Below are positions 11,918 through 16,529 of a DNA stretch of 64,000 nucleotides, piece by piece. A model generated the notes under the pieces. The model did no database searches. It was not told where the DNA came from and saw only the letters and a list, made by a program, of their open reading frames with translations. This DNA is from Microlunatus soli (lineage in GTDB: Bacteria; Actinomycetota; Actinomycetes; Propionibacteriales; Propionibacteriaceae). How positions within the stretch are numbered: position 1 is the stretch's first letter; each line of letters begins with the position of its first letter. A program made the translations under genes and the position numbers. Location: positions 5,084,001-5,148,000 of the forward strand of contig NZ_LT629772.1 of the NCBI RefSeq assembly GCF_900105385.1, given 5' to 3'.

Positions 11918-12661
11918 ATGACCCATCAGTTCCAGAATCAGCGTGTCCTCGTCACCGGTGGCTCAGCAGGTATCGGCAAGGCAGCAGCAACAGCGTTCGC
12001 CGACGAGGGCGCGGACGTGATCATCGTCAATCGCAGCCACGACTCCGGGACAGCCGCCGTCGCCGAGATCACCGATCGCGGCGGTCAGGCCGAATTCCAC
12101 TCCGCCGACCTGACTTCCAGCGAAGCGATCAGCGAACTCGTCGTGGCAACCGGACCCGTTGATGTGTTGGTCACCAGTGCCGGCTACCGGCCGATACCCG
12201 GGCCTGCCGCCGACACCAGTGAAGATGATCTTGACGCGACGTGGGCTGTGAACGTCAAAGCTCCGTGGCTGTTGTCGGCAGCCTACGGCCCGATGATGGC
12301 GCAACGCCGGTCCGGCGCCATCGTGCATGTCTCCAGTGTGAGCGGCACCCTCGATCAGGAAGGATTCGGGGCGTACAACGTGTCGAAGGCCGCGCTGAAC
12401 GGCTTGGTGCGGGCGTTCGCGCGAGAGCTCGGCCCGACCGGAGTACGGGTGAACGCCGTGGCGCCGGGGCCGACGTACACGCCGTACACCGAACAGTTCG
12501 GCAGTGCGTTGGACGAGTTGATGCGTCCGTATCCGCTCGGTCACCCGGCCACGGCCGATCAAGTTGCGGCGGCAATCATCTTCCTCGCCGGATCCACCGC
12601 CTCGCACATCACCGGTGCCGTCCTTCCCGTCGACGGTGGCCAAGGCACCGTCATCCGCTGA
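11918..12661 (+). CDS. Short-chain dehydrogenase/reductase
   Basis: A 247-residue classical SDR. The Rossmann motif is VTGGSAGIGK (TGxxxGIG), the catalytic Ser is in HVSSVSG, and the catalytic pair is YNVSK. The ATG at 11918 gives a normal family length; an upstream in-frame ATG at 11615 would add about 100 residues of non-homologous sequence that overlaps the small basic gene. C-terminal PVDGGQG is typical. The substrate is unknown. The gene is convergent with, and overlaps by 11 bases, the transporter gene at 12651. Confidence 0.9.
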   Translation: MTHQFQNQRVLVTGGSAGIGKAAATAFADEGADVIIVNRSHDSGTAAVAEITDRGGQAEFHSADLTSSEAISELVVATGPVDVLVTSAGYRPIPGPAADTSEDDLDATWAVNVKAPWLLSAAYGPMMAQRRSGAIVHVSSVSGTLDQEGFGAYNVSKAALNGLVRAFARELGPTGVRVNAVAPGPTYTPYTEQFGSALDELMRPYPLGHPATADQVAAAIIFLAGSTASHITGAVLPVDGGQGTVIR

Positions 12662-13778
12662 CCCGCATCGAGCTCCTCCCGGAGCCGGCCGGTGACGCTC
12701 GTCGTGTTCCGGCCTGTCGACGACGTCTGAAGATCATGCTGATGATCACCAGATGCGGGAACTCGATCAGCATCCCGATCACGATCGCGGCGTAGGTCAG
12801 TGGTCGGCCGGGCAAGGCGAGTGCCGTCACGGCCAGCATCAACGGAGCATTGCGGGCAGCGGTCGTCATGGTGAGCAGTACGTGATCATGATGCTCGAGG
12901 CCGACGAGCCGGCCGATCAACTCGGTGGCGATGAAGATGAGCACAAAGAACACGCAGATCGCGATCAGGCAGCTGAGAAAGACGCCGCCATGGTCGGCGA
13001 TGACCCTGGCGTTACCGGCGAAGATCTCCACGATCAGGGCGGCGATCAGGAGAGGAGCAGAGCCGCTCACCAGGTGGCTCAGACGTCGGAACGTTCGCGG
13101 CGCTGCCGAGGAGAGAATCCGGCGTAGCAACCGTGAGCCGGCGAATGGCACGGCGAACCAGAGCAGCAGGGTCTGGGCGATGTCGGCGATGCCGATTCCT
13201 GTGTCCCGACTGAAGAAGAGCCAGATCAGGATCGGATACCCGATCAGCTGGGTGATCATGTTCACCGGAAGCAACATCGAGCCCACTGCCGTATTGCCGC
13301 CGGCGATGCGGGTGAACCCCAGGAACCAGTCGGTGCACGGCGCGGCGAGGTAGATGAACAGCCCGATGAAGACGGCCTGCTGACCCCCGACGAACAATCT
13401 GGCGAGGACGTAGCCGAGGATCGGGATGATCAGGAAATTGACACCCCAGGCGAGCCCGGCGACCCGCCACGCCGAAATGCCGGCCAGGCCGGTGAAGCGG
13501 GCCTCGAAGAACAGCGCCGAGACCAAGATCAAGACTGTCGGAGAGACCAGTGCACCCGTCCGAGTGCCGACCCCGGGCGCAAGCAGGCCGATTGCACAGC
13601 CCAGCAGGATCGCAGCACTCAGCATTCCTGCCAACCGCCAGGTCGGTGCCTGTGATGCGGGCTCGACGTCTCCGCCGATTGGTTTCCGGGACGTGCCTGC
13701 GCGCTCGTCGGTGATCGACACTTCGGCGGGCGGGTGCTGTGTGGGTGAGTCTTCGGCAGTCGACAGCCGGTTCAGCAT
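12651..13778 (-). CDS. ACR3/bile-acid-symporter-like transporter
   Basis: A 375-residue, roughly ten-helix membrane protein of the BASS/ACR3 superfamily. The helix motif AAPCTDWFLGFTRIAGG keeps the APCT Cys that binds arsenite in ACR3 pumps, but the following residues differ from authentic ACR3 (usually an M/V-rich helix and a TKGD-like turn). The ATG at 13778 overlaps the upstream flavoprotein stop (ATGCTGA), so they are cotranslated. The first 45 residues are an extra hydrophilic tail. The operon begins with bL36 and a Fur/Zur box, so the exported or imported ligand could be a metal-related compound rather than arsenite. Confidence 0.8.
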   Translation of the reverse strand: MLNRLSTAEDSPTQHPPAEVSITDERAGTSRKPIGGDVEPASQAPTWRLAGMLSAAILLGCAIGLLAPGVGTRTGALVSPTVLILVSALFFEARFTGLAGISAWRVAGLAWGVNFLIIPILGYVLARLFVGGQQAVFIGLFIYLAAPCTDWFLGFTRIAGGNTAVGSMLLPVNMITQLIGYPILIWLFFSRDTGIGIADIAQTLLLWFAVPFAGSRLLRRILSSAAPRTFRRLSHLVSGSAPLLIAALIVEIFAGNARVIADHGGVFLSCLIAICVFFVLIFIATELIGRLVGLEHHDHVLLTMTTAARNAPLMLAVTALALPGRPLTYAAIVIGMLIEFPHLVIISMIFRRRRQAGTRRASPAGSGRSSMRVSG

Positions 13779-14953
13779 GCGCAGCTGACGCCGCAGCAAC
13801 TCAGGTCGTCGGTCCACATCCCGGCCTCTCGCCAGTACTCCAGGCCGCTGGTGTCGCGGCTGAACCGATCGCCGATCGTCCGGGCGATCTGGGCGTAGCG
13901 CTGCCGAAACTTGTAGACGAAGCAGAACCGCAGATCGTCGTGCCGCAGTGCCGGCCCGTTCAGGAAGAGACCCGGGGTCACCGTGGACTCGTCGTCCGCG
14001 GTGAGCAGCGGCCAGCCATCGGAGCGGCGGGCGAACAGGCCGGCAACAGGGCCCAATCCCGGGCCGAAGCCGGTGGCCAGTACCGGCTGGGCACTCGACG
14101 GGTGCCGGGCGCCGCCGGTCGTGCGGACGAGGTATCCGTTGCGGTCCTGCTCGATCGATGCGGCCCTGCCGCGCGCGAGCTTCAGCCGTCCGGTGCCCAT
14201 CGCTCGGTCGAGTCGCTGCCGCGTCCGTGGCGCCAGTTGGTAGGACGGATCCGACCCGGCACCGGCGTTCCAGGGATGCTGGTGATCGAGCACCGTCACC
14301 CGGCTGCCTCGCTGCACATGATGGCAGGCCAGGTCGATGCCCGATTCGTACCCGCCGATGACCACCAAGCGGTCGGAATGCGCCGGCGCTTGCCAGGCCC
14401 GCGAATCGCTGCTGTGCACGGCGAGTGCTGCGTTGGTGACCGCAGGTGCAGTGGGCTCGGTGAACTCGCCGCCGGCCCAGACCAGCGTACGCGCCCGGAT
14501 CGGTCCACGGCTGGTGTCCACTCGGAACGCCTGGCCGTCGGCTCGCACCGCCGTCACCTCTGTTCCGGTCGACACCGGCACCTCGAAATGCTGCGCGACG
14601 GCAGCCAAGTAGCGGGCGTACTGCGCGCCGTCGGGGTAGTCGACTCCGAGGGAGAAGGCTGGAGAGGTTTCGGGATGGATGGCATTCAGATCGGTGGCGC
14701 CGAAGCCGTTGCCGGTGAACGACGGCGTCAAGAAGCGCTGCTTATCGGGCCAGTCCGCGAAGGTCTGTCCGATCTCGCCTCGTTCGACGACGCCGATCGA
14801 GACCTGTGGCAGTACCGACAGCGCGAGGGCGGTGCCGATACCGGCCGGCCCGGCACCCACGACCAAGCAGTCCAGGCGTTTGGGGAGGCGCCGGACGGCC
14901 GGCCGGTGATGTCGGGTCCTCGGTGTCGGCGACGTCCTGCTCGCTGCTCTCAT
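13772..14953 (-). CDS. FAD/NAD(P)-dependent flavoprotein (ArsO/CzcO-like) with Cys-rich tail
   Basis: A 393-residue class-B flavin oxidoreductase-like protein. The FAD-binding motif is [10 protein letters not shown] near residue 30, the NADPH-binding stretch is [11 protein letters not shown] near residue 200, and a FATG-like motif reads VLATGFG. It ends in [12 protein letters not shown], a four-Cys tail suited to metal or thiol chemistry. The ATG at 14953 is preferred because it overlaps the rpmJ stop (ATGA); a longer frame from 15079 is only the rpmJ region read out of frame. Homologues occur in arsenic (ArsO) and zinc (CzcO) contexts; the reaction is unknown. Confidence 0.85.
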
Positions 14954-15072
14954 CCTTGGCGGGCCTTGAACCGCGGGTGCAATTTGTTGATCACGAACAC
15001 CCGTCCTCGTCGGCGGACGACCTGGGCACCGGGCTTCTCGGCCAGGGCCCGGATCGAGTTGCGAACCTTCAT
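14950..15072 (-). CDS. rpmJ: 50S ribosomal protein bL36, zinc-independent (C-minus) paralogue
   Basis: A 40-residue protein beginning [19 protein letters not shown] and ending FKARQG. It is bL36, but it lacks the Cys3-His zinc ribbon of the standard form, so it is the C-minus type. Such paralogues replace the zinc form when zinc is scarce and are normally repressed by Zur. GGAAGG lies 8 bases before the ATG. The stop overlaps the flavoprotein start, and a perfect Fur-family palindrome lies 26 bases upstream. It is too short for usual ORF cut-offs and is easy to miss. Confidence 0.95.
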
Positions 15073-15097
15073 GTGACACCTTCCAGGCGACTCATAA

Positions 15098-15112
15098 TGA
15101 GAATGATTCTCA
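15098..15112. promoter_or_regulatory. Fur/Zur-type operator
   Basis: TGAGAATGATTCTCA is a perfect 7-1-7 palindrome, the layout bound by Fur-family regulators. It resembles actinobacterial Zur boxes (TGAAAATGATTTTCA). It lies 25-40 bases before the bL36 start, next to a possible -10 TATAGT (15116-15121, minus strand), so binding would block transcription. The bL36 paralogue downstream argues for Zur rather than Fur. Confidence 0.88.
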
Positions 15113-15221
15113 ATACTATACGTGTCGAGCGCCTCCGGGTCAGCAAGGGGAGCGTGGCAAACTCACAGTCGCGATCTCAACGGCTCGACCTGTCGGTGCT
15201 GCTGGGGTGATCGATGGGAGA

Positions 15222-16529
15222 ATGACTGACGTGTGGTTGCCCTACGGACGCGGAAAGTTGCAGGTGGACCTGCCGGCGGCGGCTCGGCCGACGGTTCTGT
15301 CGGCCCCGAATGCCAGTCCGATCGCAGATCCCGATGATGCGGTCCGACGCTGCCTCCACGAGCCCGTCGGCAGTCCCGGCTTGCCCGAGCTGGCGGCCGG
15401 TCGGAAATCGGCCTGCATCGTGATCTGTGACATCACCAGGCCGGTGCCGAATCACCTGTTCCTCGCGCCGATGATCAAGATCCTGCTGGACTGCGGGATG
15501 CCGCGGTCGGAGATCACGATCCTCGTCGCGACTGGTCTGCATCGTCCGAACCTCGGTGCTGAGCTGGCCGAGTTGATCGGCGATCCGTGGGTGCTCGACA
15601 ATGTCGAGGTCGTCAATCACGATGCCCGGGACGTAGCCGATCTGGTGGATCTCGGAGTGACCCCGACCCGCGGGACGCCCATCCACCTCAATCGACGCTT
15701 CGTCGAGGCCGATCTGCGGATCGTCACCGGGCTGGTCGAGCCACACTTCATGGCGGGGTGGTCGGGCGGTCGGAAGGTGATCGCGCCGGGCATCGCCGGT
15801 CATCAGACCATTCGTACGTTCCACTCGCATCGGTTCATGGCCGATCCGCTGGCCACCCAGTGCAACCTGGACGGCAACCCACTGCATGAAGATCAACTAG
15901 ATATCGTCAGAGCAGTCGGGGAGGTGTACGCGTTGAACACCGTCATCGACGATGAGCGACGCTTGCTCGATGTGTTCTTCGGTGATGTTCTCCAGTCCCA
16001 TGCCGATGCGGTCACCGCCGCGGCTCGTACCTCGACGATCAGCGCCGAGCGACGCTTCCGTACGGTCCTCACCTCGTCCGCCGGCTATCCGCTGGACAAG
16101 ACCTACTACCAGACGATCAAGGGGATGGTCACACCGCTGGATATCCTGGAGCCCGGCGGCACGCTGCTGATCGCCTCGGAGTGTTCGGAAGGCCTGGGAT
16201 CCCCGGAATTCGTGGCGGCCCAGCGTGAGCTGATCGCCCGCGGTGCGGACGCCTTCCTCGATCATCTTTCGACCAAACAGATGGCCGACATCGATGAGTG
16301 GCAATCACAGATGCTGCTGCGGTCCCAGCGGATGGTGCGGATCCAGCTGTACAGCACGGGCCTGTCAGCGGAGCAGCAGAAGCTGACCGGCGTCGAGGTC
16401 ATCGACGATCTCGGTCAAGGGATCAGCGACAGTCTCCGAAGGTCGGGCGACGATTCCTTGGCGATCATCCCCGACGGGCCGTACCTGATTCCGAGGTTGG
16501 CACCCCAGGAGCATCAATCCCACAGTTGA
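15222..16529 (+). CDS. LarA-family nickel-pincer racemase/epimerase
   Basis: A 435-residue LarA-like protein. Catalytic and cofactor residues line up with lactate racemase: Asp70 and Arg73 in CDITRP, His107 in ATGLHRP, His175 and Lys185 in EPHFMAGWSGGRKV, and His201 in RTFHSHRF (counted from ATG 15222). In LarA the Lys carries the nickel pincer nucleotide and the His pair moves the hydride. The ATG at 15222 has GGGAGA upstream and is preferred over GTG 15207. LarB/C/E maturation genes are not in the window. Homologues act on various 2-hydroxyacids, so the substrate need not be lactate. Confidence 0.85.
   Translation: MTDVWLPYGRGKLQVDLPAAARPTVLSAPNASPIADPDDAVRRCLHEPVGSPGLPELAAGRKSACIVICDITRPVPNHLFLAPMIKILLDCGMPRSEITILVATGLHRPNLGAELAELIGDPWVLDNVEVVNHDARDVADLVDLGVTPTRGTPIHLNRRFVEADLRIVTGLVEPHFMAGWSGGRKVIAPGIAGHQTIRTFHSHRFMADPLATQCNLDGNPLHEDQLDIVRAVGEVYALNTVIDDERRLLDVFFGDVLQSHADAVTAAARTSTISAERRFRTVLTSSAGYPLDKTYYQTIKGMVTPLDILEPGGTLLIASECSEGLGSPEFVAAQRELIARGADAFLDHLSTKQMADIDEWQSQMLLRSQRMVRIQLYSTGLSAEQQKLTGVEVIDDLGQGISDSLRRSGDDSLAIIPDGPYLIPRLAPQEHQSHS

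Follow-up and report, generated by a model that had tools for sequence, protein, structure and literature searches.

Responses to zinc starvation are usually described in terms of importers, COG0523 GTPases and zinc-free paralogues, and zincophores are also known. Among the described systems closest to the one reported here are Zur operons that carry cysteine-free ribosomal paralogues; on the transport side stand the ACR3 proteins, which are exporters, and the FeoB superfamily, whose members import divalent metal. The operon considered here lies in a window of 64,000 nucleotides (nt) from Microlunatus soli (NZ_LT629772.1; the genome is a single contig of 6.73 Mb), and consists of a Zur-type box followed by an rpmJ paralogue encoding ribosomal protein L36, a flavoprotein gene and a carrier gene. 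The box and the type-B L36 are shared with the described Zur operons, and a znuA-like gene, a type-B L31 gene and aztD are boxed as well; what differs is that M. soli adds the flavoprotein and the carrier. That the operon is real and that it is to be read in terms of zinc are both well supported; the operator motif, the gene overlaps, a conserved association with zinc genes, a conserved tail on the flavoprotein and an exchangeable carrier are each supported by computation. A probability of roughly one half is given to the fuller reading, a Zur-repressed zinc-starvation operon with two jobs, in which L36 would spare zinc and the flavoprotein-carrier pair would acquire or mobilise it.

All three genes lie on the minus strand and follow the box in the order rpmJ, flavoprotein, carrier, with each gene overlapping the next (Table 1). 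The flavoprotein ATG shares 4 nt (ATGA) with the rpmJ stop, and the carrier, read from the ATG at 13778 to the stop at 12651, overlaps the flavoprotein gene by 7 nt, an alternative carrier start being possible at an upstream GTG at 13817; these overlaps support the assignment of the three genes to one operon. A sequence-only reading of the window had described the same arrangement, namely a perfect 7-1-7 Fur-family palindrome upstream of a 40-codon, C-minus rpmJ whose stop overlaps a flavoprotein gene ending in CCGVSCAC and, beyond it, an overlapping transporter gene; its coordinates are right and each of these elements is borne out. It had also named separate promoters as a finding that would speak against it, and matching to the sigma-70 consensus on both strands of 12400-15400 gives a single promoter (0.3 expected from shuffles); it sits at the operon head, its -10 element stopping two bases short of the box, and the interior of the operon has none. 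The rpmJ product has no cysteine and lacks the CxxC zinc ligands; a second L36 copy, with a CxxC motif, is encoded elsewhere in the genome (G000:C1:4072195).

Table 1. Features of the zinc-linked operon of M. soli, with positions counted from the first base of the window.
Feature	Position	Strand	Basis
Candidate Zur-type operator TGAGAATGATTCTCA, perfect 7-1-7 palindrome	15098..15112	.	Pattern search, near-match sites in genome
Sigma-70-like promoter CTGACC-17-TATAGT	15115..15143	-	Consensus match only
rpmJ paralogue, 40 aa, cysteine-free type-B bL36	14950..15072	-	75.2 bits, cut-off 70 (type-B L36 model NF002021)
GGAAGG, putative ribosome-binding-like site, 6 nt 5' of the rpmJ ATG	15079..15084	-	Sequence reading
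FAD/NAD(P) flavoprotein (Pyr_redox_3), 393 aa, ends ...SCCGVSCAC	13772..14953	-	Open reading frame (ORF), profile, alignment, fold
Codons of the C-terminal tail C386-C387-x3-C391-x-C393 and stop	13772..13798	-	Alignment
BASS-fold carrier, 375 aa from ATG, PCTDW (147-151), EFPH (339-342)	12651..13778	-	ORF, profile, fold

The box is the sole perfect match to the pattern TGANAATNATTNTCA in the 6.73-Mb genome. With up to one mismatch allowed there is one site in the 64-kb window, where 0.02 is expected, and five sites genome-wide, the reversed-pattern control giving 0. Four of the five precede zinc-starvation genes, the present operon included; the others are found at a znuA/aztC-like gene that opens a znuACB-fur operon and whose probable ATG is overlapped by the box (NCBIfam hits to this gene are all under their cut-offs, the best being AztC at 158.4 bits), before a type-B rpmE encoding L31 (103.3 bits, cut-off 86) and before aztD (443.2 bits, cut-off 400), while the fifth precedes a kinase-like gene for which a zinc link is not evident. 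Because three of the four other near-matches precede the znuA-like gene, type-B rpmE and aztD, the box appears to behave as a Zur operator in the M. soli genome, one to which Zur itself would bind, in agreement with the Zur-type operon proposed by the sequence-only reading. Interpreting the box as an iron (Fur) or peroxide site was abandoned, as the near-matches in M. soli precede zinc genes. A two-mismatch site is located upstream of a COG0523 GTPase gene (best NCBIfam hit MRF, under cut-off), after which comes a second Fur-family gene (L126, 3905-6215, minus strand). The genome has three Fur-family genes, two of them beside zinc genes (L125, L126); given the L126 gene and its box, M. soli may have two Zur-like regulators.

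The flavoprotein-carrier pair is widespread, its carrier is exchangeable, and the M. soli operon is one actinobacterial form of it. In one scan of 84,980 species genomes the best 80 of at least 518 flavoprotein relatives were kept, from Actinomycetota, Bacillota, Chloroflexota, Deinococcota, Planctomycetota, Gemmatimonadota, Acidobacteriota, Pseudomonadota, haloarchaea and others; neighbours were called by fixed tblastn thresholds, a carrier being counted if it lay on the same strand within 600 bases of the flavoprotein gene. An adjacent co-directional carrier is present in 65 of these 80 loci, 31 being BASS/ACR3-like (27 downstream and 4 upstream of the flavoprotein) and 34 short FeoB-like (all downstream). 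Zinc-starvation markers, searched over about 8 kb around each locus with some stretches ending at contig ends, occur near 44 of the 80 (42 when Fur genes alone are not counted): COG0523 at 39, L36/S14/L33 relatives at 24, Fur-family genes at 15, DUF3024 at 7, FolE2 at 3 and HisI at 1. The actinobacterial-type set (L045-L074 plus L091) has them at 13 of its 31 loci, and the control set of 20 windows of 17 kb, all actinobacterial and free of N, at none, though the same search detects ordinary ABC ATPases there. Within the order of M. soli, the flavoprotein is present in 3 of 293 genomes and a carrier of at least 247 bits in the same 3; ten further genomes have distant carrier hits only, at 75 bits or less.

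In a tree built from 94 flavoproteins, the BASS label has to be gained or lost at least three times; the majority of BASS-type rows fall into a single actinobacterial clade, with the FeoB-type L067 nested inside, and the M. soli flavoprotein groups with that of Microlunatus parietis. Outside the actinobacterial set, all loci with a recognised carrier have the FeoB-like form except the gammaproteobacterial L106, which is BASS-type within the FeoB part of the tree and has the order COG0523-flavoprotein-carrier-COG0523. The FeoB-like partners share the FeoB_N and Gate domains with the ferrous iron transporter FeoB (4 of 4 scanned) and keep an invariant GxGCNV motif in the 31 aligned; they differ from FeoB in being about 550 aa long and in scoring 118-120 bits against 315.65 (3 of 3 scanned). 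The islands are clearest on annotated plasmids: zinc islands on Klebsiella and Pantoea plasmids carry folE2, dksA, a GTP-binding protein gene, Fur, cysS, the flavoprotein, the FeoB-like permease and zigA; a Paracoccus plasmid carries aztABC, Fur, a GTP-binding protein gene, the flavoprotein and cysS; a Paenibacillus plasmid has a GTP-binding protein gene, rpsN, the flavoprotein, the FeoB-like permease and rpmG; haloarchaeal plasmids have a GTP-binding protein gene, the flavoprotein, S14 and the FeoB-like permease; and two staphylococcal plasmids have a zinc-binding protein, the flavoprotein and a Gate-domain permease. The Acaryochloris locus has zigA and Fur genes and no BASS or FeoB-like carrier. 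The flavoproteins of Frigoribacterium sp. JB110 (L047) and Microbacterium esteraromaticum (L048) are near-identical and stand in an identical zinc gene order, which suggests recent horizontal transfer.

Boxes of the M. soli type also occur upstream of relatives. In the upstream windows of 98 loci (L032, L082, L089 and L109 included), 17 boxes lie within one mismatch of the pattern, where the remaining sequence of these loci predicts 0.37; a box is found at 11 of 32 BASS-type loci, 2 of 43 FeoB-type loci and 3 of 23 others. One genome of the same genus (G012) has a perfect box directly before the flavoprotein and carrier genes, with rpmJ absent, and a second, Microlunatus endophyticus (G227), has a one-mismatch box before rpmJ-flavoprotein-carrier and a divergent COG0523 gene; in these cases the box therefore follows the flavoprotein and not only rpmJ. 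The sequence-only reading had proposed searching other genomes for this three-gene order behind a Zur box, and G227 provides it. The G012 flavoprotein nests among Microbacterium rows on the tree, and that of G227 is split in two frames in the assembly, through either a sequencing error or a real frameshift.

The carrier matches ASBT structures (4n7w_B, E 6.8e-8, template modelling (TM) score 0.68 / 0.83), which have the BASS fold. It had earlier been called ACR3/BASS-like; the BASS fold holds, while its kinship to ACR3 is distant only, as it scores 69.5-70.1 bits with the ACR3 model TIGR00832, far under the cut-off of 282.8. Shared with ACR3 and BASS proteins are the fold and a conserved Cys and Glu, C148 and E339 aligning with the essential membrane-helix Cys and Glu of ACR3, the importance of which is described in the available text of two studies (PMC3317726, PMC9671657). 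All 32 partner carriers, that of M. soli among them, have C148, D150, E339 and H342, whereas in two canonical ACR3 sequences position 150 is A and position 342 is A or V; three other relatives, near cation-transporter genes, keep the C, D and E and lack the H. When the partners are compared with all five outsiders, H342 is the only key position that discriminates (together with Y143, R/K157 and F340). Judged by residue type, the C148/D150/E339/H342 side chains would suit zinc. The carriers of L163, L166 and L167 are annotated 'arsenic resistance protein' or 'bile acid:sodium symporter' and lie near genes for cation diffusion facilitator (CDF), P-type ATPase, other cation transporter or ArsR/SmtB proteins; some of them may serve cations rather than arsenite.

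Alternatively, the carrier could be a divergent ACR3 efflux pump for As(III), Cd or Co that enter through derepressed zinc importers, with the flavoprotein as an ArsO-like helper. It retains the Cys and Glu that ACR3 requires, as given in the available parts of PMC9671657 and PMC3317726, and a PCTDW-type Acr3 from Exiguobacterium confers As(III) resistance, raising the minimum inhibitory concentration for E. coli AW3110 from 0.2 to 1 mM according to the table, or 2X according to the text, of the available part of PMC9671657. The C, D and E thus do not exclude arsenite and the substrate of the carrier is unproven; the use of C and D as proof of a divalent-cation substrate was dropped given the same protein. 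Three nearer relatives have a gene for a CDF protein, another cation transporter, a P-type ATPase or an ArsR/SmtB protein in their vicinity, and the genome's own arsenic locus at 1.44 Mb (L171) pairs a 452-aa FAD/NAD(P) protein, cysteine-rich near its end and with weak YpdA/ArsO hits, with a canonical acr3 (440.1 bits) and an ArsC-like gene (read by eye), echoing the pair in the zinc operon. This true acr3 elsewhere in the genome, and the low score of the operon's carrier beside the ACR3 cut-off, speak against efflux, as do the companions here, which are a Fur-type box and L36 rather than ArsR and ArsC, and the FeoB-like partners of the non-actinobacterial loci, whose superfamily is one of importers. 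The flavoprotein scores 45.5 bits with the ArsO flavin monooxygenase model NF040505, below its cut-off of 425. Efflux is considered unlikely; the suggestion of the sequence-only reading that the carrier serves something other than arsenite agrees with the zinc genes near 44 of the 80 relatives and with the separate canonical acr3, and such a role is likely.

The M. soli flavoprotein combines a Pyr_redox_3 domain with a C-x(3,4)-C-x-C tail. This tail stands at the extreme C terminus in 93 of 95 rows, and CC is seen in 83; the 95 are drawn from 99, with L032, L082, L089 and L109 excluded as wrong short ORFs and with L044 and L072, which are one locus, both counted. Across 65 aligned flavoproteins C344, C387, C391 and C393 never vary, and 58 of the sequences also have C386. 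The fold is predicted with a mean predicted local distance difference test (pLDDT) score of 89, the N terminus being less confident; its best PDB match is 3d1c (TM 0.82 / 0.89), followed by YpdA/Bdr (17-22% identity). The 3d1c protein, a Staphylococcus aureus 'flavin-containing putative monooxygenase', is a full-length homologue with the identical tail type, ending in SCCEVSCTC; no tested function was found for it. The bacillithiol disulfide reductase YpdA/Bdr, the closest characterised fold, is likewise a two-dinucleotide-binding flavoprotein; the M. soli protein differs from it in scoring 58.9 bits against the TIGR04018 cut-off of 339.9, and the alignment with the YpdA/Bdr structure 7a76 stops short of the tail.

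This kinship raises thiol repair as a second alternative, in which the flavoprotein would be a disulfide reductase for the cysteines of zinc-free proteins during starvation and the carrier would transport a thiol of low molecular weight or the corresponding disulfide. The invariant C344 may sit close enough to the flavin to hand electrons on to the tail cysteines, which fits such a reductase as well; the YpdA model score far below cut-off goes against it, as does the fact that FeoB-like permeases are not known as thiol carriers, and thiol repair appears improbable. A small metallophore, made by N- or S-oxygenation of a metabolite into a zinc ligand that the carrier moves alone or as the complex, has little chance, as a FeoB-like exporter for an organic ligand would be odd, even though zincophores exist and comparisons of profile and fold show a weak resemblance of the flavoprotein to flavin monooxygenases and Lys/Orn N-hydroxylases. 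A role for the flavoprotein in keeping the cysteines of the carrier reduced was rejected, for this would suit the cysteine-bearing FeoB form but not the BASS form with its single conserved Cys.

In the preferred two-job reading, the cysteine-free L36 would replace the zinc-ribbon L36 and so spare zinc, and the BASS-fold carrier would import zinc, either free or bound in a thiol complex; the short FeoB-like permease would take the carrier's role in nearly all non-actinobacterial loci surveyed. With NAD(P)H and flavin adenine dinucleotide (FAD), the YpdA/Bdr-like flavoprotein would keep the flexible C-x3-C-x-C tail reduced; the reduced tail may accept metal or strip zinc from a thiol ligand, and would pass the zinc on, possibly to the COG0523 GTPase encoded near many relatives. 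A more specific proposal, that of a redox-coupled zinc uptake module of bacteria and archaea in which one flavoprotein, its cysteine tail accepting metal, works with either of two unrelated permeases, a BASS-fold zinc or zinc-thiolate importer here and a FeoB paralogue as its counterpart elsewhere, is tentative and somewhat doubtful.

Several points weigh against the zinc acquisition reading. BASS proteins are not known as zinc importers, ACR3 proteins are exporters, and the Exiguobacterium Acr3 shows that a PCTDW-type carrier can raise arsenite tolerance. Zinc has no redox chemistry of its own, which would make any need for a flavin indirect, and the structural model has low confidence at the tail (pLDDT about 48-72) and in the block 341-350 that holds C344 (67). 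A recognised carrier is absent in 15 of the 80 loci; a zinc marker is lacking in 36 of the 80 stretches, including 18 of the 31 actinobacterial-type ones, and the L36/S14/L33 relatives elsewhere are assigned by similarity and not by missing cysteines. The M. soli-type box, the only motif scored, stands upstream of no more than 11 of 32 BASS-type and 2 of 43 FeoB-type loci. The open-access literature searched yielded no data on expression, binding or transport for any of the members.

Oxidoreductases have been met in Zur regulons before. In Corynebacterium glutamicum, cg0795 encodes an oxidoreductase of unassigned function; the gene is oriented divergently to a COG0523 gene, and mutation of zur derepresses it strongly, according to the available text of PMC2823685; in Synechococcus 7002 a FAD oxidoreductase (SYNPCC7002_G0132) is raised in a zur mutant and by N,N,N',N'-tetrakis(2-pyridylmethyl)ethylenediamine (TPEN), according to the available text of PMC4628125. 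The likeness to the M. soli flavoprotein lies in their being oxidoreductases within Zur regulons; the tailed family occurs in 2 of 151 Corynebacterium genomes, one of which is the seed genome, and G0132 was rejected as a member, since the pAQ7 FAD protein taken for it differs (E 0.44 to P0003). An unrelated second FAD protein family is seen in a Haloferax zinc cluster (L030, 2579-3868, plus strand) and in the pAQ7 cluster of Synechococcus 7002 (L185, 13590-14855, plus strand), which is reported to be under Zur control, the two proteins being 27.8% identical over 414 columns. A pairing of the flavoprotein and carrier with zinc or Zur has no description among the titles and abstract openings listed from the open-access literature searched, subscription papers being outside this scope; the available portions of a COG0523 survey and a Zur review hold no matching passage on the pair, and flavoprotein-related terms were not found in the available portion of a Paracoccus denitrificans zinc RNA-seq paper.

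Divergent to the operon (window 15207-16529, plus strand) lies a gene for a LarA-like nickel-pincer racemase (351 bits, cut-off 460).

The occurrence of a zinc-linked flavoprotein in many phyla of both prokaryotic domains, its tail cysteines conserved and its permease exchangeable, suggests that the uptake or delivery of zinc involves a redox step so far overlooked. It also gives a testable family to proteins annotated 'NAD(P)/FAD-dependent oxidoreductase', 'nucleoside recognition domain-containing protein' and 'arsenic resistance protein', which include copies on Klebsiella plasmids; the flavoprotein seems to be a component, so far undescribed, of the microbial response to zinc starvation.

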